Positions 1 through 47,063 of a stretch of 64,000 bases of DNA are shown one piece after another. This stretch comes from Cladocopium goreaui (taxonomy: Eukaryota > Sar > Dinophyceae > Suessiales > Symbiodiniaceae), in assembly GCA_947184155.2 (NCBI GenBank), contig CAMXCT020001019.1:1-64000 (forward strand), read 5' to 3'. The notes beneath the pieces were generated by a model that did not search any database, was not told the origin of the DNA, and worked only from the letters and a program-made list of their open reading frames with translations. The translations under genes and the position numbers were made by a program. Numbering within the stretch: position 1 is the first letter of the stretch; every line of letters starts with the position of its first letter.

Positions 1-620
1 TCTGATGGCAGTCACCCTGAGTCGCAAGGTGATCTGCTGATCTTGGATGTGCAATTGCACCTCATGGCCTGTTTCTTGTGCTACTGGCTCGATTGGACAT
101 AACCAGTCCACACAACAAGCGATGAACTGCTGTGCCAGTTTCCATATCAGCACACAAGTGCCGATTGCGGCCAAGAAAAACAATGCATACCATTCGTATG
201 GGGACAGGCAGTATGTTGGCTGCCCTGCCACTGCCTGAATTTGGCTCAGGACAACAAGTGCCTTGATGCACCCGACCAGTTGTCCATTTTGCCGATAGGC
301 CGTGGCGGTTCTTCCCGCTCGATCTTGGTCTTTGATCCAACCAACACAAGCTGGCGTAGGAGTCTTCCACGCATACTGCTTGGTCACGGTTGAGACCTTG
401 ACAGAGATCTTCTTGCTCGAAGAGAGCATATCTTCTCCGTCACGAGCTTCATACATGCCTAAACCAGGCATTGCTTGCCTTACTTCCGTTCCACTCTTTG
501 GATGCTTGGTGAGGAAGTTGGCACAATTCACAGTGCCCTTGACCTTGCCCAAAGCTATCTGCTTGGACTGCAAAGCTCCTTGCACATAGAACTCACAGAC
601 TTCTAGGTGTCTGAGCTTGG
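1..620 (-). CDS. C-terminal extension of the copia polyprotein with a membrane helix (partial)
   Basis: Downstream of the frameshift the minus strand stays open from about 620 to the window edge, roughly 205 codons with no stop and no internal start needed. It opens with the end of copia RNase H (KLRHLEVCEFYVQGALQSKQ, NCANFLTKHPKSG), then about 130 residues of unknown sequence, including one strongly hydrophobic helix at 193-140 (WYALFFLAAIGTCVLIWKLA) flanked by Cys-rich sequence. Most copia polyproteins end shortly after RNase H, so this is an extra domain. It might anchor the product in a membrane or be envelope-like; neither can be shown here. The end lies outside the window. Confidence 0.6.
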
Positions 621-1951
621 ACCGAGCCTGGTCCAATGCGCTTGGAAGCTTGCATTGCCGATGAACTGTCCGTCCATAGGCGGGGCTTACCGCACTGCTG
701 GCCAAAATCTCGGGTGATCAGCTCCTTGAGGAAGATGGCTTCCCGAGCTGCCCTCGAAACTCCCCTGAGCTCAGCGTCCGGCGAACTTGTCGCTGGTAGG
801 CCTGGTTGGGTCTGTGTGCCACATGCGACGATTGCACCACACACAACTGCTATGTAACAGTCGGTGCTTCGCCGTGTTTGCAGGCATCCGGCCCAATCCG
901 AATCGCTATACAATTCGCATGGCCACTCTGAGCTACAGTTGGAATCACAGGTTGTGACTCGGCCAACATGTGGATGCGACTGCAGGTATGCCGCGAGAGT
1001 CTTGACGGCTTGCATGTCACATTTTCGCGGTTGCGACATGTGTCGCGCTGCTTCTTTTACCGCGTACTGGATCTCCCTCCTGTCCAGCAACAGGTAGATC
1101 GCTGATCCTACTGCCGAGCGATACAGCTTGGCATCTGCCTCGCCAAGAGGCTCCGTTTCTAAGAGGTTCAGTTGTTTGGAAGGAACCTCACTGCGGTCTC
1201 TGGCGGAGATTCCCGCGGCAGCGATGACAGCTTTGATGTGCTTCTCATCTGGTATCGTGATGATAGCATCTTTGGTTCGTACCTTGGTGCGACCCAGGTA
1301 CTCAACAGCTGTTCCTTCGCTTTCGAGCTCTCCTGCTTGGACCTCACAGTGTTTCGGCATTTCGACTTCAACCAGGTGGTTGACAGCCTCTTTTGGTCCA
1401 GCCATACGGATGTCATCTATGTGGTGAATCAGGATGATCCCTGACTTGTCACAGCGGAAGACACATGGATCTTTCTCCCCACGAGAGAAAGCATACCGCT
1501 GTGGATCAACCTTTGAACAGAGGATTTCCTCCAGCTCATTTCTGTAGACGGATCCGGCTGTCCTTCTGCCGTATAGGTTTCCATCCAACCTGAAGAAAAG
1601 TTCTTTGAACGAATCCTTGTACCAATCCTTCAATTCGGGGCTGAGAGTTTCTAGCCACTCAAGGAAGATGTCGTGCCACTCAACTGGTGCACGCATGTAG
1701 ACATGCTTCCCTTCGCTGGCTCCTCGATCAGCTCCAATCAAGAAGGCTGCGACGATGTCCAGACTTCGGGCGTAGTAACCCTTTGTCAGAGCATAGACCT
1801 CCAGAAGATTGTGCGCTTCTGGGGTAGGAGTTGGAACGAACACGTCCAATCCCTCCTCCTCGGCTGCTGTGTGTCCATCGTCCGATCTCTTTAACCTGCA
1901 GTCCACCGTTGGTTCACATTCCGTCTCCTCGTTTTTATGGGCGCATTCCAC
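593..1951 (-). CDS. Copia RT and RNase H (452 codons)
   Basis: After about 30 codons that translate the insertion, the RT continues with LDVFVPTPTPE, the first catalytic Asp in SLDIVAAF, KDPCVFR, and the YxDD-equivalent box HHIDDIRMAG, with His at the usual Tyr position. RNase H follows: ELYSDSDWAGC, SSPDAELRGVSRAAREA and LWTDSSSAMQ. The open frame ends in an out-of-frame tail because of a one-base excess (GTCCAAG) near 618-622. The next frame then continues with the conserved KLRHLEVCEFYVQ. The enzyme would copy element RNA in cytoplasmic particles. The last residues before the stop are not native. Confidence 0.85.
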   Translation of the reverse strand: MECAHKNEETECEPTVDCRLKRSDDGHTAAEEEGLDVFVPTPTPEAHNLLEVYALTKGYYARSLDIVAAFLIGADRGASEGKHVYMRAPVEWHDIFLEWLETLSPELKDWYKDSFKELFFRLDGNLYGRRTAGSVYRNELEEILCSKVDPQRYAFSRGEKDPCVFRCDKSGIILIHHIDDIRMAGPKEAVNHLVEVEMPKHCEVQAGELESEGTAVEYLGRTKVRTKDAIITIPDEKHIKAVIAAAGISARDRSEVPSKQLNLLETEPLGEADAKLYRSAVGSAIYLLLDRREIQYAVKEAARHMSQPRKCDMQAVKTLAAYLQSHPHVGRVTTCDSNCSSEWPCELYSDSDWAGCLQTRRSTDCYIAVVCGAIVACGTQTQPGLPATSSPDAELRGVSRAAREAIFLKELITRDFGQQCGKPRLWTDSSSAMQASKRIGPGSVQAQTPRSL

Positions 1952-14413: not shown

Positions 14414-17377
14414 TTACATCTTAAGAAGATGTGGGAGTTTCCATAGGAGTTTGGAATCAGGAGGATGTAAAGTAGGGTGAGGTGAACAACGACATAGTTG
14501 ATTTAGTGAAAGGTGAATCCGTTCACTTGTTTGAAAATCATGTGGAACAGGAGTAGAAAAATCCCATCGGCTCAAATCATCCGCTATGATGTTGTCAGCG
14601 CCAGGAATATGGCTCACATCCAATTCAATACCTGTAGTCGAAGCCAGGCACGTGAGGATCTCGACAAAAAGACATAGAGGATGAGTTGTCGTAAATAACT
14701 TGTTGCTCATGCTCTCCGCTCCCGTGTTGTCGCTCAAAGACTTCAAACATATGGGAATGCGAAACCCAGGAAAAGATGTAGCCACTAACCATACCAAGGC
14801 AATTTGGGCTAGAGTTTCAAATGATGCAATGCTTCTTTGCATATTGGGGTCCAAATGAATTGACAAATTGTCAAAATCAGCATGGGAAAATTTTTCAGAA
14901 AACCAAAATTGAACTCCTGAATGATGGCGGATGAAACCTCCGATTTGACAATGAGAGCCAGCTGCACATGCATCTGCTGCCGCAATGCCATTCCAATATG
15001 GCTTTGCTCGCATCGGTCGTGATGGAGAAACCCCCATCAGCCAATGGTCAAATAACTTCAAAATTCGGAGAGAATCAGGTCGAAGTTTGCGTTTGGAGGA
15101 ATTTGGATTGATAATCCGTAGCCAAATTCTATTCTCCGTTTTGATATGTAATGATGTAAGATCCGCCAGAGAGGATACTGCTTGATGTCGAACTGCGATT
15201 AACTTACCTGATATAGGTATGGCGGAGCCCAATGGTGCTGTATGAAATGTCAAATTCGGTGTTAAATATTGATGAATGCGAGGCCATGTACCAGCATCAA
15301 TACTGAAATGTGTCGCCGGGATGGTGTATAGGTCGTGATACCAGTAGTGGATCCAGATCCGCATGAGCGGAAATAATTGAGTAATCCACATTGCAAGACC
15401 AATGAGCTTTTCCAAAGACTTACGTGTCGTTCGTGGCTGGGATATGAGATGTTCGATGTATCCTCGGAGTTTGAGGATCTTTTCAATGGGGATTGTAACG
15501 ATACCTGCATTGAAATTGAACTTCCAGCCAATATAGTCAATGGAAGAATGCATGGCCGTCTTCTTCCAGCTGATAGGGATTTCCAAAAGCTGGCAGAAAA
15601 TACATAGCAACGTGGCTGACAGCGGCATCATGTTGGCTTCCATAAAAAATAGGAAGTCATCCACATACAAAAATCCAGCGTGACTTAACCAGATCAGATG
15701 GTGAAATATACGTAGAATGAGTCCACCCAATCGCGCCCACCAAAAAGCAGAGAAAACCGCACCAAATGGGGTAACTCTATAGAAGAAAAGCTGTCCCTCC
15801 AAAGAAAAGCCAACCAGGCCACATTCGTCCGGATGTAGAACAATTCTTTTATGAGCAGCTTTAACATCTAAAGAGAAGCCCATTAGATTCCTCTGACAGT
15901 TGCGTAGAGGGTAGCTACGTAATACCTCTTTGGCAGTCGGTAATGTGGACCTTTCCGGAATGATGCACCGACCATTCAGGCCACAGACGCTGGAATCCAC
16001 AACTAATCGGGGGGCTCGTCCATCCGAGCGAGCCACTCCCAATTTTCCAATGGCAACTCCTTCTGGATATTCCTGTTGCGCTTCATCCAAAGAACCTTTA
16101 TACGCAAAAACCCAACCCTTGTCAATTTCTTCCTGAACAAGTTCTCGTGTTAATGGTAGATCCTCTTCGGCGCTCTGCCAGTTGGAGAGGTGGGCTGATA
16201 ATGGGTCGGGTTCTGTATCAGCACGTTCTTTGGGCGGAAAAATACCTGATGGAGGAATCGCCGTGGAAAAACCGGTCCGGACACCTTCTAATAAACATGG
16301 TAATAATGTAAAATCGAAGTCGTGCATGATCCTCTGTAAAGAATGTAAAATACGAAGCATTGGTTGATGCTGTCGAATGGACCAATCCGGTTGTAGATCA
16401 TGAGACAGCAAAAAATTCTCCAGATCTTCCTTGAATGGAGCTAAAATCTCCATAGAAAATGGCGGTGAAGGATTGCCCGATGCTACATGAGCCAGTAGGA
16501 TCTTGTCCAATCGCTCGGAGATAATCCTGTTCATCCATGAGGTACGGAGCATCTTGAACCAGTCGTGTTCTTGACGATGGTCCTGACTCCAGTCCGGGTG
16601 GGAAAAAGCTCCACCCCCATCGATTTGTGCAAATGGATAATCCGACAGGCGCTTGATGGGCATGAGGGCATCCAGGGAAGACCACCGTAAATCCAGTGCT
16701 GAGGTGTCCAAGAGTGGTGCCACCAGGGTTGCAAACAATTGTGCAAGCTTCTGCGGATATTGTGCTGTCGCCCGACTTGCGAAAGCACCAGAGTCGTCTT
16801 TGAGGCCTTGAAGACGAACATGAGAGTTGGGAGGATGTTGACAAATGCATCCAATGGGTCGAAGACCCGGAAAACTTGAGGCAAACATCCATGCTTTGTA
16901 CACATCCATCTCATAGGCACAAGCTGCCACGTTGATACAAGAAGCCCCAATCAATTGCAAAAATTGTCTAACAACCTTTTCTAACCATGACATGGCATTC
17001 AAGGGTTGCTCAAGGTGGACATGGCCGCCTGCTTGAAAAACCAGGGTGAGGACTTCGACACAGCGAGAAAGCACCAGAAAGCTCTCTTGAACACGTTGCA
17101 GTTCCCAAGCTGTAAGATTGGGTAGACCTGATAAATGCTCCGGCGATGTCAGGGCTTTAGGACCTCCATCATCTCGAAGTTTGAGTCTACTGTATTCGCA
17201 GCAGGAAGGGCTGGCCGCTCCATAACCAACCTGACCACTTGCCGCGACGCGTAATAGGTCCTCGTAAGCTGCATCGGATAAAATATCCATGGAAGAATCC
17301 AATAAAATGTCAAAAGAAAGAACTGGGTGGCCATGTCCAAAATAGCCATCGATAATGGACGTGTAACACCTGAGCAA
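14414..17377 (-). CDS. Element A methyltransferase-like / RT / RNase H polyprotein (987 codons)
   Basis: Residues 1-180 are the rest of a methyltransferase-like domain: a PPC-like box (AASPSCCEYSRLKL, 54-67) and an ENP-like box (VHLEQPLNAMSW, 120-131). RT follows from about 400: first Asp in FSLDVKAAHK (D504), FYRVTPFGAVFSAF, and the catalytic YVDD at 571-574. RNase H occupies about 795-940 with D802, E854, D883 and D933 in ADAC, SFETL, LSDNTGAE and IADDLSRW, all present. The enzyme would copy element RNA into DNA. The frame is uninterrupted, but its first 15-20 residues overlap another frame (17149-17637) that holds the start of the methyltransferase domain, indicating a frameshift near 17330. 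Confidence 0.88.
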   Translation of the reverse strand: MLRCYTSIIDGYFGHGHPVLSFDILLDSSMDILSDAAYEDLLRVAASGQVGYGAASPSCCEYSRLKLRDDGGPKALTSPEHLSGLPNLTAWELQRVQESFLVLSRCVEVLTLVFQAGGHVHLEQPLNAMSWLEKVVRQFLQLIGASCINVAACAYEMDVYKAWMFASSFPGLRPIGCICQHPPNSHVRLQGLKDDSGAFASRATAQYPQKLAQLFATLVAPLLDTSALDLRWSSLDALMPIKRLSDYPFAQIDGGGAFSHPDWSQDHRQEHDWFKMLRTSWMNRIISERLDKILLAHVASGNPSPPFSMEILAPFKEDLENFLLSHDLQPDWSIRQHQPMLRILHSLQRIMHDFDFTLLPCLLEGVRTGFSTAIPPSGIFPPKERADTEPDPLSAHLSNWQSAEEDLPLTRELVQEEIDKGWVFAYKGSLDEAQQEYPEGVAIGKLGVARSDGRAPRLVVDSSVCGLNGRCIIPERSTLPTAKEVLRSYPLRNCQRNLMGFSLDVKAAHKRIVLHPDECGLVGFSLEGQLFFYRVTPFGAVFSAFWWARLGGLILRIFHHLIWLSHAGFLYVDDFLFFMEANMMPLSATLLCIFCQLLEIPISWKKTAMHSSIDYIGWKFNFNAGIVTIPIEKILKLRGYIEHLISQPRTTRKSLEKLIGLAMWITQLFPLMRIWIHYWYHDLYTIPATHFSIDAGTWPRIHQYLTPNLTFHTAPLGSAIPISGKLIAVRHQAVSSLADLTSLHIKTENRIWLRIINPNSSKRKLRPDSLRILKLFDHWLMGVSPSRPMRAKPYWNGIAAADACAAGSHCQIGGFIRHHSGVQFWFSEKFSHADFDNLSIHLDPNMQRSIASFETLAQIALVWLVATSFPGFRIPICLKSLSDNTGAESMSNKLFTTTHPLCLFVEILTCLASTTGIELDVSHIPGADNIIADDLSRWDFSTPVPHDFQTSERIHLSLNQLCRCSPHPTLHPPDSKLLWKLPHLLKM

Positions 17378-40656: not shown

Positions 40657-40776
40657 GTCAGCATGCAAATCGGCTACCAAAACAACGAAGCAGTGACTTC
40701 TATTTGTCCGTGTGGTGCGATTTACGGGTCACCACACCCCGAAGAAAATGCCAGGGCTTCGCCCGGCCTCTCCTCC
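40657..40776 (-). repeat. 120-bp repeat, copy 1 (candidate B2 of element D)
   Basis: Matches 40875-40994 at offset 218 with one substitution. Shares GTCAGCATGCAAATCGGCTA at its start. Confidence 0.85.
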
Positions 40777-40874
40777 GGGGCGGGTGGGAAGGTAACCAAA
40801 CTAGACAGTGCTCAAAACTTGAGCCCAAATCATAGCCGGACCCAAGCTAACCCTACGTTCTAGTGAACATGCGA

Positions 40875-40994
40875 GTCAGCATGCAAATCGGCTACCAAAA
40901 CAACGAAGCAGTGACTTCTATATGTCCGTGTGGTGCGATTTACGGGTCACCACACCCCGAAGAAAATGCCAGGGCTTCGCCCGGCCTCTCCTCC
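40875..40994 (-). repeat. 120-bp repeat, copy 2 (candidate B1 of element D)
   Basis: The 98 bp between the copies (40777-40874) would be A2. The matching A1 was not found up to 64000 and should lie outside the window if the reading is right. Confidence 0.85.
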
Positions 40995-41119: not shown

Positions 41120-42361
41120 TCAGCGGCCTGCATTCCAGCTGCGGTCGTCCCATCGCTGCCAGCGGCCATCCCAGCCTCGCCACTCATTGGTTTTATTCCA
41201 ATTCTCCCACCAGCCTTCCTCTTGGCGCTCTTGCCCTCCAGGCTTCCAAGTCCCCCAGCAATCGTCATCTTCTGCCTCCCTGCGCAGGGCTGGAGCAGCC
41301 CTTCCAGTCTTGCCAGCAGGCTGTGACCGACCTCTTTTTTCCCGGCGTTCGGCTTCCTTTCTCTCAAGCCATCCAGGTTGCAAGGTTCTGGCCTTCGGGT
41401 TGGTCCAGCTTCTTGGGAGGTCCTCAAAAGTCGTGCGGGGCTCTGAAGCTAGGAAAGCTTCATGGCGTGCGGCTCGCACCCTTCCCTTTTGCATCTTTGC
41501 AGCTTCACGGTGTGAAAAGCCAGCAGCCAAATCTGCCTCAAACTTGCCTTTGTGCACCTTTGGTCTCGCGGGCAGGAGGTTGAGGCGGAGCGCCTCTAAT
41601 CTGGCACAGCATTTCTTCCACGCAGCTGTGCGCATTTGGCGTTTCACATCTTCAGGAGCCTCCAAGAAGACTTGCATGTTTTTTCTTGTCTCTTCAAGGA
41701 CCTTCTCATCTTCAGCTCTTTCTTCCTCAGTGCGGTCGTCGTCAAAGTCAACCTCTTCTTCAAGGAAGTAAGGAGTGTAAGGGCTTTGGGCGGATCGCCC
41801 AGGTTGTGTGTTCGATGCCTCTTGTTTGGTAGTGTCTGCATGCTTTCTTGCGGCATCTTCCCTTGCTTCTGCGGTGGTCAACCTCTTGGGTGGCGGACCT
41901 GGCGGAGGAATGGGCCCATAGCTCACTGGTGGCCTTTGTGGGTTTGACTGCAATGGTTTGGGCTGCGGAGCAAAGCACCCTAGTGCCTGTGGCTGCCCGC
42001 ATTCGGCTGGTATTTTGGGCGGAGGTGGTGCAAGCCCATGGTTGAGCCATTCGGCAGCACTGGCGTGAAATTGATACCTTGAAGGGCGACCCCCAAGGTA
42101 AGTTTCGGGCACAGGCTTCGGCAAACTCTCAGTGGCTGGTTCCTTATATCCAAGGTTGGGCGGATGGGCTGAGCTAGCGGCTCGGTGGAAAACCTCAAGG
42201 AACTGGTGTACAGCACTGTCTACTGCAGCACCAAATTCTTGCTCCTCTTTGTTTTCCATGCTCGTAGATGCTGTCCCGGGCTCATCCCACATCCCGTCAT
42301 CAAAACCTGTAGGAGCGTGACATGGTGAATCTGAAAAATCGCTTTCCACTTCAACATACAC
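41120..42361 (-). CDS. Element D C-terminal tail, acidic to Trp-rich (413 codons)
   Basis: Begins with an acidic stretch, then a Pro-rich region (PPPGPPPKRLTTAEAREDAA), a charged helical segment (FDDDRTEEERAEDEKVLEET), Arg/Lys-rich sequence, and a Trp/Arg/Asp-rich end (WWENWNKTNEWRGWDGRWQR). No enzyme motif. It continues the reading of 42220-43014 after a frameshift near 42350, so it is the C-terminus of the recombinase/J-domain protein or a separate ORF after it. Trp-Arg-Asp-rich tails of this kind may bind RNA or pack particles; that is a guess. Confidence 0.5.
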   Translation of the reverse strand: MYVEVESDFSDSPCHAPTGFDDGMWDEPGTASTSMENKEEQEFGAAVDSAVHQFLEVFHRAASSAHPPNLGYKEPATESLPKPVPETYLGGRPSRYQFHASAAEWLNHGLAPPPPKIPAECGQPQALGCFAPQPKPLQSNPQRPPVSYGPIPPPGPPPKRLTTAEAREDAARKHADTTKQEASNTQPGRSAQSPYTPYFLEEEVDFDDDRTEEERAEDEKVLEETRKNMQVFLEAPEDVKRQMRTAAWKKCCARLEALRLNLLPARPKVHKGKFEADLAAGFSHREAAKMQKGRVRAARHEAFLASEPRTTFEDLPRSWTNPKARTLQPGWLERKEAERREKRGRSQPAGKTGRAAPALRREAEDDDCWGTWKPGGQERQEEGWWENWNKTNEWRGWDGRWQRWDDRSWNAGR

Positions 42362-43014
42362 GAATTCTTCGTCATCATCACGCTGCTCCCAAGTTTGTGA
42401 AGAGGCTGCAGTTTCAGAAAAAACTCTTCCGGAATCTCCCGTGTGTGCTGGGCGGTCCCACCTTCAGGTGGTGGTTGCTCCCGAGCAGGTTCTGGATCTT
42501 CCTCCAAAAATTTGCGCGGGGCACGCAAATCTTCTTTTCCACCTGCCCCTGAGTAAGGTTGCGACGCTCCGTGCTGTCTCCTTGAGACATGAGGTGGTTT
42601 GCGACGTGGATCAGCTTGTGGAGGAGGACCAGCAGGCTGAGGTGGCGGCGGTGCCTTTCGCGGCTTCTTTGGCTCTGGAGGTGGCGGTGGTGCTTTGTGC
42701 ACTGGAGTCGCTTTCCGTGGTTTCTGAGATGGCTTAGCTGCAGTTGGCTTGCCATCAAAGCCAGGGGAAGCTGGCCTCGCACTTGAGGACGGCCTCGGAG
42801 GTGGCTGCTGTGGCTGGCCGGTCGGAAAGCCAGTTCCAATTTGATTGTAAGCTCCAGCTGAACCCTGCGCCTTGCTGGGCGGAGCACCCCACGGCTGAGC
42901 ATACATCTGGGAGCAGCTTGATGGGATGGAACATCCCTTCTCGTCCTGTTGGCTCTCCACTGTGTGTATTGGACCCGCATGATCGGGTTCAGCAAAATAT
43001 CCTTGGCTGCGCAA
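42220..43014 (-). CDS. Element D Pro-rich linker after the J-domain (264 codons)
   Basis: Reads QPQQPPPRPSSSARPASPGF, KAPPPPPEPKKPRKAPPPPQ and similar, a proline-rich linker. It follows the J-domain after a frameshift at about 42950 and leads into the acidic/Trp-rich tail. Part of one long broken polypeptide. Confidence 0.5.
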   Translation of the reverse strand: MRSQGYFAEPDHAGPIHTVESQQDEKGCSIPSSCSQMYAQPWGAPPSKAQGSAGAYNQIGTGFPTGQPQQPPPRPSSSARPASPGFDGKPTAAKPSQKPRKATPVHKAPPPPPEPKKPRKAPPPPQPAGPPPQADPRRKPPHVSRRQHGASQPYSGAGGKEDLRAPRKFLEEDPEPAREQPPPEGGTAQHTREIPEEFFLKLQPLHKLGSSVMMTKNSCMLKWKAIFQIHHVTLLQVLMTGCGMSPGQHLRAWKTKRSKNLVLQ

Positions 43015-44444
43015 AGCATTTTGAACTCTTCTTCTTTGGCGGCTTTCTCACTCTCTGCAACCTTATCAGGATGGAGGGCCCTTGAGCGGCGTCTCCAGGC
43101 TGCCATAATGGACCTCTGGTCAGCTCCAGGCGAAAGGCCTAGGAAATTCCAGAGATCCAGGTCTGGGTTCCGGCAGAGGAAGAGGTTTGCCGCATTGAAT
43201 TCGTTCGGTGGGGGAGCCTCCTCCATGCCGCCTGCTTTGGTTCCAAACCGCACCTTGCGGTCTGGAGCCCATGAGAACGCCCGTGGGGGGGTTGAACCAA
43301 AACGACACGAGGCGGGCTCAGGTTGCGAAGGTGCTGGAGCAGCACCGACAGCTGACTGCACATACCCTGGGGCAGTATTGACCGTTTGTCTAGCTTTAGG
43401 GTCTTTTTGACTGGGCATGGTGATGGTGTTGGAATGAAGCATTCCTGAAGATATGCCTTTCTGTGCAACATGATCTTCATACAAGTAAGCATGCACTGCG
43501 TTGGAAGTCCAACCACCAAACCGTTTCAGCCTGTCCAAATCCCCTGTAGTGGCAAAAAACGCCGTTGCCCCCCCTTTCCTTAGTGAGTGGGACCCCGCAA
43601 GTTCGCTTGGAAAGCCTGCTGCCAAGGCAGCAATTTTGACAAGATTAGTAATACTCTCCCTGTCAAAACCCGTCCCATTCTCCAGTCGGAAAATTGGCGC
43701 CTCCTCCTCGGAGCTTCGCCAACGATGTGGGAAAAGGGCCTGAATGGCGGCCAGCGCTTCGACCGGGCAAAGGTCCCCCTTGGAACGGTGGTGTGATCGT
43801 GCCTGCCCCCTACCATACTGGTCGTTTTTAGATGATTTCACTTGAACAACAACTTCATCAGCATGAACCCCTCGGCAGGATTTGCCTTCGTGGTAAAACG
43901 CTACATCTGCAGGGCGAAGCGCCCTATTCAGGGGGTCTGTCCCATCAACTTGGGGAAGAAGCTCGCTTGCCCGCATCATGAAAAACCAACCTGTCAAAAG
44001 GGCCCCTTTAATGATGACCTTATCCTTGGCCGAAAACCCACCGGCATCTAAGTGCTGGATGAGCCAGCGAAGCATGCTGGGTGTGACAGGAAGTTTGCGG
44101 GTGGGGGCACCTTCCCACCGTTGCAATCCTGCGATTGCTGCCCAAAGCCGGGGTCTTCCCACTAAAGGGTCTGGAAAACCCGATGAAATGTGCGCATATC
44201 TGATGGCAGATAATCTTTGACGGATTCCCCCAACTGACCTTTTCATGACCTGATGTAAAAACACCACGAACCTGATGAGTCTTTGCTCGTCTTCTTGGCG
44301 AGCGGAGCGCTCTTCCCCGTCAAGAAACAAAGGGGCCCTAGAACCACTGTTATACAGTACCCATTGTTTCCAGCCAGAAGCATAAACCCTTCTAGTTGAA
44401 TCAGCAAGTTTTGCCATTACAGCCTCTAATGCCAACTGGCCCAA
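42957..44444 (-). CDS. Element D tyrosine recombinase fused to a J-domain
   Basis: Recombinase, residues 1-335: SAM-like core-binding region, R158 (FFMMRASELL), K203 (VQVKSSKND), H286 and R289 (SHSLRKGGAT), W312 (FGGWTSN) and Y320 or Y322 (VHAYLYED), the complete canonical set with HxxR, unlike HxxK in A-C. After a Pro-rich linker, residues 427-496 form a DnaJ-type domain: LDLWNFLGLSPGAD, helix II SIMAAWRRRSRA, the HPD tripeptide at 458-460, and helix III EEEFKMLCAAKDILLNP. J-domains stimulate Hsp70, so the recombinase may recruit a host chaperone, for example for complex disassembly. The open frame continues to 42414 but is out of frame after about 42950. Confidence 0.82.
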
Positions 44445-45752
44445 CGTTTCCGCACCTCCCAGGCAAGCGTCCGGGCGTTTTTGCGGCAGGAGGTGGGGGC
44501 GGGCTGAATCAACCCCTCAAGGGTCGTTAGTTCAGCTTTGGACGCTCTCTTGCCCAGAGGACCCCCAACCTTTTTGTTTTCTTTTGAGCTTGAGCCGGCG
44601 CAGTGAGTAGGGGCTTGAAAGCTAGCTTTTTCTTTCCACGAAGTGAGGAACAGTTCCTGGGAAGGGTTCCTAGGGTTCCGTCCCCATGCCTTGAGCCAAA
44701 CTTCGAGCTGCTCCTGTGCCTGAATTTCGTCAGGATCCAGAACGCCTGCTCGTTCAAAGGCCTGCCCGCTGACAGCTTGCAATAAGCTCTGCGCAGCCTG
44801 CCAGCCGATTTCTCGCACTGCTGCCCTGACTAGCAATGGCTTCTGGTCATCTGACGTTGCTTCCCATGATGTTTGATCTCCTCCCTGCATTTCCCATACT
44901 TCCTCGGGGAGCAAAGGGCGCACTGCCCCAGTGCCATCCTCTAGGAGGGTTCCTCCTGGAATCTTGAGAGGGTCTCCAACAAGCCTTGGGCCGCATGCAA
45001 CTCCTTTGACACTGTGCACTAAGTACCTTGCGTTCGTTTCTTTGTCCACCACGTGGCCAACCGGCCTTGGAAGCCAAGGATCTCCAGTGGTAACGATCGT
45101 GGGCTCTCGGGTGAACATGAAGCGAGGGGGCAGCAGCCAGTTGGAGAGGAACTCCCCCGACTTGAGGGAGCATGCAGCAGGGGTTCACCTCAGCCACTTT
45201 CCAGCATCTCACCTGCTCCGCCCGATTGGCCGCGGCCCCATAGAGCCATATGCTTCTCTTTCGGGCAAAGAAGCTCCCTAAGTGATCAGTTTGGACAATT
45301 GCGTTGTGCAAAGGCCCGTGACGCCACCCCAGCTCAGTCAAGATCTGCTTGCTCTTCTGGCTAAGGCTTTGTGGGGCGTCAATGATGGCACCTTTTAATT
45401 GCCTAGCTTCTGCAAATGCCCTTTTCACGGAGCTGGCTTCTGTGCCAAGTGGGTCAAAGCTGATAGACGCGGTCAACCAGTTGGCTTCCTTGACTCTGGT
45501 GGTCGACCCGCCACCTCTGGCCCAGCCCAGCTCAAAACATGCCAGATGGTCACCGAACTTGATCTGGCACAGACCTCCTGTGAAAGGCTGTACTTGAGGG
45601 TTGCTGGGGAGGCCAAGACTTGCCCAATGGTCTCTGACAACTGAGCGGCGAGGGCGGCCGTTTCCCCCTTCTCGCGAGGCAGTCTCAAGGTAGGTCTCAC
45701 TGCTCCTCGCAACATTTCCTCCCAATCCCCGGTCAGGGAGAGCTGGGTCCAT
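44426..45752 (-). pseudogene. Element D methyltransferase-like domain, C-terminal motifs
   Basis: In the 45752-44847 frame: ACFELGWARGGG, GAIIDAPQSLSQKSKQILTE and NAIVQTDHLGSFFARKRSIW. In the 45118-44426 frame: GPRLVGDPLKIPGGTLLEDG then VRPLLPEEVWEMQGG. The last two blocks fit motifs VIII-X of cytosine-C5 methyltransferases (R-rich QxR segment and the LTPxExxRLQG box). The frames join near 45130. No clear PPC box was found in this part. It lies between RNase H and the recombinase. Confidence 0.5.
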
Positions 45753-45946
45753 CCCTGGGCTTTCATGTCAGCTTTGACCTTGCTCTCATCCTCACGAGTC
45801 AGCCAATCATTCAAGGTGTTGTGGTAGGTCCGCACAAAAACTCCCTCTACACTGAAGCCATTCTCAGCCTCCATTCTCTGTAGAAGAAGCAGTAAGGCCC
45901 GCACGTATCGGTTCTTGGAGCGACGTGATTGCAGCCATCCCCGCAC
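45473..45946 (-). CDS. Element D RNase H, C-terminal half (157 codons)
   Basis: GWLQSRRSKNRYVRALLLLL, VEGVFVRTYHNTLNDWLTRE carries the last acidic residue (NDWLTRED). The preceding frame ends with the first two: GGDATLDRL and VYELLTFIVL. At the third position, where YVTDN is usual, the sequence reads YVTGL, so a catalytic Asp may be lost (GAC to GGC). A frameshift at about 45950 separates the two parts. Confidence 0.6.
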   Translation of the reverse strand: MRGWLQSRRSKNRYVRALLLLLQRMEAENGFSVEGVFVRTYHNTLNDWLTREDESKVKADMKAQGWTQLSLTGDWEEMLRGAVRPTLRLPREKGETAALAAQLSETIGQVLASPATLKYSLSQEVCARSSSVTIWHVLSWAGPEVAGRPPESRKPTG

Positions 45947-47063
45947 ATTTGAGGCCGGTGACGTACAAGATCATATCCCCTTGCCACGCGGTTTGACGAG
46001 AAGCCGCAAGCACAATGAAGGTCAGCAATTCATACACAGCAATGATCTCGAGGTGACCCTCGGTTCCCATTACCATCCTTAGTGCTGGGAGATAAGCTTT
46101 GCATGATCCCAGGTGGAACACCCGGTCCTTCCAGTCTGCGGCACCTAGTCGATCCAACGTGGCATCACCGCCAACGAATCGGGCCTTCGGGGCCATGCCT
46201 GGCAAGGCCAACCTTTCTCGGATGGGGAGTAGCTTGCCAAACGCCACCCTGAAACTTGAACCCCACGGCTTCTCCATTTGAAGCCTGACCCAGTCCAAAG
46301 CATCCCAGAATTCTTCCCACATGACGTGCAGCTCCTGTGGAGTTCCCCACGGCTGAGCGTACTCGTGGTCACATGGGAGCTGTTGCAGTGGCCGGTAGAA
46401 CACTGGGAGGTATGGGACGAGCTCGGGGGCTGAGGAAGCCCAGTATTGCGCCGATCCTGCGAGCTCTCGGAGAAGTTTCACCTTTACTTGTGTGCAACCC
46501 CTTTGCAGGGAGGGTTCCCTCAGCAAATACTTGGCTTTCATGCGCTTGGGCTCGGGCAGTGTGACTGTCTGAGCTTCAAAATCGAGATGAAGCCCCCATA
46601 GCAGTTGAGATGGCGCCGGAATACCTTCCTCAGCCAATTTTTCCAAGTTGATTGCTCCTGGGCCCCACACGTCCATAGCCGCCAAAGATCGCTCGATGCG
46701 GTTTCCCACCACCGGCTCAACTACGACTCCATCATCCATCAGCCATCGGCTGGTATATGGGACAACATCATTGAAATGAGGCAAGCTCGGACGGAACGTC
46801 CCGTGGTGTTTCTGAGCTGCAGTGGCCCAAATCACAAACTCGCCCGGTGCACCTATACCCAGCCAAATACCATGACAAGGCTCAGCACAAGGATCCCGAG
46901 CAGCCGGGTACAAAACTCGGGCACGTCGGTGCTTTTGAGAAAATGCCACTTGAATGCCCTGGGTACGTCCCGTTTGGCACAGCGTTGTGGAACCTGCGGG
47001 TGACGCGATCGCCACCACAAGCTTTGTCGCAGAACCGCGCGATGTCTGGGTTGCGCTGCTGCT
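45864..47063 (-). CDS. Element D RT C-terminal half and start of RNase H
   Basis: GAPGEFVIWATAAQKHH and the catalytic box RWLMDDGVVVEPVVGNRIER, in which LMDD stands for YxDD, then INLEKLAEEG, LLWGLHLDFEAQTVTLPEPK and the connection to RNase H. The first ~35 residues of this frame are not native: the correct frame from the insertion point reads KQQRNPDIARFCDK and shifts into this one further on. Continues the RT N-terminal half at 58691-59167 on the other side of the DNA transposon. Confidence 0.75.
   Translation of the reverse strand, partial: SSSATQTSRGSATKLVVAIASPAGSTTLCQTGRTQGIQVAFSQKHRRARVLYPAARDPCAEPCHGIWLGIGAPGEFVIWATAAQKHHGTFRPSLPHFNDVVPYTSRWLMDDGVVVEPVVGNRIERSLAAMDVWGPGAINLEKLAEEGIPAPSQLLWGLHLDFEAQTVTLPEPKRMKAKYLLREPSLQRGCTQVKVKLLRELAGSAQYWASSAPELVPYLPVFYRPLQQLPCDHEYAQPWGTPQELHVMWEEFWDALDWVRLQMEKPWGSSFRVAFGKLLPIRERLALPGMAPKARFVGGDATLDRLGAADWKDRVFHLGSCKAYLPALRMVMGTEGHLEIIAVYELLTFIVLAASRQTAWQGDMILYVTGLKCAGMAAITSLQEPIRAGLTASSTENGG

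Follow-up and report, generated by a model that had tools for sequence, protein, structure and literature searches.

A J-domain of the DnaJ type encoded behind the tyrosine recombinase of a DIRS/PAT-like retroelement in Cladocopium goreaui

Introduction

We know of no J-domain in the DIRS, PAT and Ngaro groups of retroelements, which encode a tyrosine recombinase (YR). J-domains stimulate Hsp70 by means of their HPD motif, which is required for this stimulation, and of a basic helix II. Among genetic parasites, the polyomavirus large T antigen carries a J-domain of its own in cis with a DNA-handling activity.

It was previously reported that dinoflagellate retroelements have captured DNA methyltransferases (PMC5890265). 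According to that paper (de Mendoza et al. 2018, PMC5890265), SymbioDIRS-Dnmt3 elements encode their YR on an ORF of its own and carry a cytosine methyltransferase as their added domain; the same source describes the DIRS reverse transcriptases (RT) of Symbiodinium as poorly matched by Pfam, and the terms "DnaJ" and "J-domain" are absent from its main text. The available parts of PMC9004415 and PMC6338049 mention no J-domains in elements either. A preliminary description of the locus presented here knew of no described YR-J fusion, and none was found in the open-access literature by titles and the starts of abstracts.

Architecture of the element

The window considered here is the whole stretch of 64 kb that opens contig C1019 of the 1.17-Gb Cladocopium goreaui genome, and it contains a copy from a DIRS/PAT-like retroelement group that has suffered frameshifts and lost its 5' part (Table 1). 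Related copies have longer open frames, up to 4417 aa in C591 and C5812, and the long frames span both the YR and the J-domain. The C591 copy was examined as one piece over 3333 codons, and its upstream part separately. Its frame begins with a weak match to a CCCH finger, followed in order by an RT (WLMDDG), motifs like those of RNase H, a conserved domain without family match, the YR, the J-domain, a stretch rich in proline and a conserved C-terminal module, with the YR sharing its frame with both the upstream domains and the J-domain. The preliminary description had proposed looking for YR-J fusions near RT-RNase H, and such fusions were indeed found in related copies, C591 being an example. 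In C591 and in the window, the RT and the RNase H are presumed from motifs, and neither was matched by a Pfam or NCBIfam model in the pieces scanned. Additionally, Pfam reported no integrase core (DDE) in these pieces, the YR being present instead.

By comparison of two insertions, on C591 and C382, the 5' end was placed at C591:642769. The first 82 nt of the C591 copy (A1) recur exactly as A2 at 656422-656503 (82/82), which is flanked on both sides by a 141-nt repeat B (656281-656421 and 656518-656658, 141/141). The C591 layout is thus A1-ORF-B1-A2-B2, with the J-domain between the terminal repeats, and these split repeats are DIRS/PAT-like traits, as is the use of a YR where other elements have a DDE integrase. 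The window copy retains B1-A2-B2 at 40657-40994, with the J-domain upstream. In both copies, therefore, the J-domain is located inside the element. Inspection by eye of the sequence flanking one copy, that of C591, showed no target-site duplication. The C382 copy (region C382:19575-23574) stops after B1 and is devoid of A2-B2, unlike C591.

One of 45 relatives weakly matched PF00145 (E 0.006), so that the conserved domain separating RNase H from YR (L039:5155-6222 and its window counterpart) may be a diverged methyltransferase. A cytosine methyltransferase at this place was not confirmed, since direct Pfam and PDB-profile tests were negative. Elsewhere, a weak YR match (33%) was observed at C2951:37143-37493, where the open frame is given as 5028 aa long. 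The window itself holds two weak matches below the Pfam cut-off, RVT_2 at 593-1951 (-) (E 0.00025) and RVT_1 at 14414-17377 (-) (E 5.7e-6), which are remains of other retroelements.

Table 1. Features of the element copy, in window coordinates
Feature	Position	Strand	Remarks
5' truncation point	47050..47060	(-)	Element-like coding starts at ~47059, by eye against the C591 protein
RT (WLMDDG) and RNase H-like region, three frames	45780..46976	(-)	397/405 positions in 3 pieces; limits by eye
Conserved domain between RNase H and YR, several frames	44630..45697	(-)	356/356 positions in 3 pieces; limits by eye
Tyrosine recombinase domain	43410..44438	(-)	Alignment columns; relatives match PF00589
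YR-J linker with RAFSWAPDRKV and in-frame Met (43224-43226)	43158..43409	(-)	
J-domain (Pfam DnaJ)	42966..43157	(-)	Residues 430-493; HPD codons 43065-43073; solved J-domain matches
Proline-rich tail and C-terminal module, frameshifted	41120..42935	(-)	ORFs; module match 41333-41740
Direct repeat B1	40875..40994	(-)	119/120 positions same as B2
A2 repeat	40777..40874	(-)	74% identity to the C591 A2
Direct repeat B2, 3' end of element copy	40657..40776	(-)	

Recombinase and J-domain in one reading frame

As the preliminary description had stated, the YR and the J-domain share a single stop-free frame of 676 aa in the window (ORF 42414-44444, minus strand), in which both are unbroken and in which the HPD is intact at residues 458-460, between helices II and III. 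Pfam DnaJ (PF00226) matched residues 430-493 of this ORF with an E of 1.8e-10 and 41.2 bits, against a curated cut-off of 27.8. Furthermore, when compared with solved structures, the J segment matched 44 distinct sequences at E <= 0.01, nearly all of which are DnaJ/Hsp40-type by name. The last ~170 residues of the ORF are outside the element's own frame, and ORFs 42220-43014 and 41120-42361, each in another frame, encode the remainder of the tail of the window copy.

Regarding the recombinase, Pfam reported no YR on the window protein even at E <= 1 and the NCBIfam XerD match was weak (E 0.039); PF00589 was detected at E <= 0.01 in 18 of the 45 proteins of the relatives' alignment A3. The catalytic set of tyrosine recombinases, R-K-H-R-(H/W)-Y, is present as R158, K206, H286, R289, W312 and Y320. 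Counted in a 33-row alignment over the rows that have a letter at the respective column, these residues were conserved in 29/29 (R158), 30/31 (K206), 30/31 (H286), 31/31 (R289), 31/32 (W312) and 29/29 (Y320) rows. The set given previously therefore stands for R158, H286, R289, W312 and Y320 and has to be corrected for its lysine, placed at K203, and for the alternative tyrosine, Y322. Column 203 holds K in 5/31 rows and R in 23/31, and Y322 is present in only 23/29 rows, versus 29/29 for Y320, so that catalysis probably relies on K206 and Y320.

The two domains are separated by a linker of ~100 residues, in which the stretch RAFSWAPDRKV is conserved within the window clade. Because an ATG lies in frame before the J-domain, the latter and its tail might constitute a separate protein, produced from this ATG, by trans-splicing or by proteolysis, and acting in trans on the host; its target could be the stress response, for example, or the silencing of methylated elements as far as this depends on Hsp70. 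In 9 of 10 distinct families, by our own grouping, the residues before the J-domain include a Met whose next residue is A, D, E or G, except that one member of a family, P0009, shows a V. In 3/3 families with DNA, this Met has a good start context, namely a purine at -3 and a G at +4. A precedent is offered by a study in plants, in which the J-domain protein SILENZIO, together with HSP70, silences elements downstream of 5mC (PMC8616336). However, long frames cross the YR, the linker and the J-domain, and this, together with the conserved linker stretch, indicates that a joined protein is encoded. Moreover, the Met is missing in P0039 (Symbiodinium sp. KB8). A search by eye for a trans-splice acceptor before the Met revealed no consistency between families. 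A separate J protein is considered less probable than the joined one, but a serious alternative.

Distribution among copies and relatives

A genome search with the window J region returned 36 matches, which by our own grouping correspond to 31 element copies, 30 in one piece and C2040 in two, and to four host-like matches at 32-40% identity. The YR search returned at least 101 matches, those with 60-80% identity being regarded as close relatives. Among these relatives we counted 31 copies reaching the YR end, and a match to the J query was found just downstream, on the same strand, in 31/31 of them, a count that refers to J-query matches and not to the HPD of each single copy. Thus, this set yielded none of the copies without a J-domain that had earlier been named as evidence against the fusion. 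The J-domain was damaged in 2/31 copies, C2040 having it split over two frames and C3750 showing one stop. Among the close relatives, the sole candidates for copies without a J-domain were C890:530836 and C3659:2414, equally scoring fragments limited to YR residues 56-184; C890:530836 was discarded as a J-less close relative, its insertion being cut off within the YR.

When the genome was searched with the C-terminal module, 38 matches were obtained, with 29 rows in 28 J-bearing copies. The other nine rows, on C4785, C786, C2324, C5798, C2751, C5918, C840 and C2829, are absent from the J list and may be J-less remnants or other genes. In a genome-wide J-domain search, in which the best 150 of 566 candidates were scored, runs of matches were observed on C752 (ten rows) and C5886 (four rows), most of them in frames of ~570-700 aa, and these are probably tandem host J-protein genes.

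Protein searches recovered at least 63 proteins (P0001-P0063), and an HPD in a J-like context was recognised, by a pattern of our own, in 21 of the 63 listed. P0001 is from Cladocopium goreaui, and P0039, from Symbiodinium sp. KB8, represents a further YR-J case. A YR tree of 29 rows was built from YR matches of ~225 residues or longer, for which P0039 was too short, and was drawn before the last protein search. It was verified that 13/13 J rows of this tree belong to one 22-row clade (support 97/97). The other nine rows of the clade are without a J-domain in the database; several of them end just ahead of it, such as P0018 and P0015, which stop at the J start of their near-twins, and the nine are probably cut gene models. 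Outside the clade there are seven rows, six of which end at most 60 residues past the YR match; the seventh, P0025, continues for 158 residues, again without a J-domain. Likewise, in the sister YR families C680, C822 and C2635 (3/3), the frames end about 5 to 15 codons past the YR match. No J-domain was seen in 1.8-2.2 kb at these three loci (in forward frames for C822 and C2635), and the one HPD of the C2635 region lies within a stop-filled stretch.

The simplest account would be that the J-domain was gained once, in the ancestor of the element clade. The J-domain tree, which is weak, is compatible with a single gain (three host domains, support 90/94). None of the four host-like matches was recognised as the host source of the domain, nor did the tree with the three host domains settle it.

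Selection on the J-domain

Four families were compared, namely those of the window, C591, C5142 and C3750. Between them, 65-74% of the fourfold sites differ; silent sites are thus saturated and dS between families is inestimable. Therefore, the dN/dS that had been suggested for assessing J conservation, calculated here by counting, proved unsuitable and was replaced by fourfold-site counts and a neutral simulation, which demonstrated that the J-domain is conserved. Its identity between families ranges from 35/84 to 47/86 (42-55%), with the aligned codons free of stops. When the C591 J-domain was evolved neutrally to the expected 64% site difference in 1000 runs, with base frequencies of our choice, the remaining identity was 11% on average and 22% at maximum, and only 37/1000 runs ended stop-free. 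The J-domain is under purifying selection. More constrained parts of the element show identities of 67-80% (YR) and 76-77% (RT-RNase H), and in full-length comparisons values similar to that of the J-domain were obtained for the domain before the YR (52-55%) and for the C-terminal module (46-54%). The J-domain is less conserved than the YR and RT-RNase H, and some of its sequence may therefore drift freely.

These findings bear on the suspicion that the frame simply runs by chance into a host exon or into an unrelated J gene beside one copy. It is true that the window copy is frameshifted and that the frame following its J-domain is foreign to the element. However, relatives occur in other sequence sets, the domain lies inside the repeats, and the 31/31 J matches together with J conservation despite saturated silent sites rule this reading out for practical purposes. 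That the J-domain is a part of the element, as the preliminary description had held, is therefore well supported.

The modest identity between families, just 42-55%, could also be expected if the J-domain were kept for its structure or for protein contacts, such as dimerisation or particle assembly, and no longer worked with Hsp70. Against this, the HPD is kept in 18/19 rows of the 33-row alignment that have a letter at the HPD columns, and helix II is basic in the listed J-bearing families, which makes a purely structural role quite unlikely.

Possible role of the J-domain

From the domain itself, its location within the element, its occurrence in the copies long enough to show it and the purifying selection on it, our main reading, to which we assign a probability of about 0.6, is that the element captured a J-domain, that selection has maintained it and that it brings host Hsp70 to the proteins which the element encodes. 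We infer, as the preliminary description did, that recruitment might be "to its integration complex or particle". The sequence of events would begin with an ancestor of the DIRS/PAT-like YR element clade that gained a J-domain and a tail behind its recombinase, both of which would have been retained by the descendant families. The J-domain is predicted to stimulate host Hsp70 via its HPD loop. Tethered to the recombinase by the linker and followed by the proline-rich stretch and the conserved C-terminal module, it would load Hsp70 in cis onto the products of the element. Candidate steps that could be served in this way are the folding and assembly of the ~4400-residue polyprotein or of the particle, the uncoating of the particle, or the removal of the recombinase from the DNA product after integration.

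A more specific version, offered tentatively and judged possible but doubtful, is that the element uses its own co-chaperone and host Hsp70 as a motor of its cycle, dismantling the recombinase-DNA complex or uncoating the particle. If this were true, the success of the element would be tied to host heat stress, in a coral symbiont. More generally, if the J-domain is selected across families, a retroelement would be steering the chaperone system of its host, and it becomes directly testable whether transposition in coral symbionts is linked to the level of Hsp70 and thereby to heat stress.

Comparison with known systems

The element resembles the DIRS, PAT and Ngaro YR retroelements in its presumed RT-RNase H, in its YR and in its split direct repeats. 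It also recalls the polyomavirus large T antigen, another case of a J-domain in a genetic parasite's own protein, the protein and the element being unrelated. As for SILENZIO, its description (PMC8616336) likewise ties a J-domain and HSP70 to transposable elements, but SILENZIO is a host protein that represses elements and is not element-encoded. With SymbioDIRS-Dnmt3, as described in PMC5890265, the present element shares the dinoflagellate group, a divergent RT and an RNase H (both presumed from motifs here), a YR, split repeats in the arrangement A-coding-B-A-B and an added host-like domain in the polyprotein; it differs in that the long frame includes the YR, with the J-domain behind it. 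It is a known kind of element that carries a surprising, selected and testable added domain.
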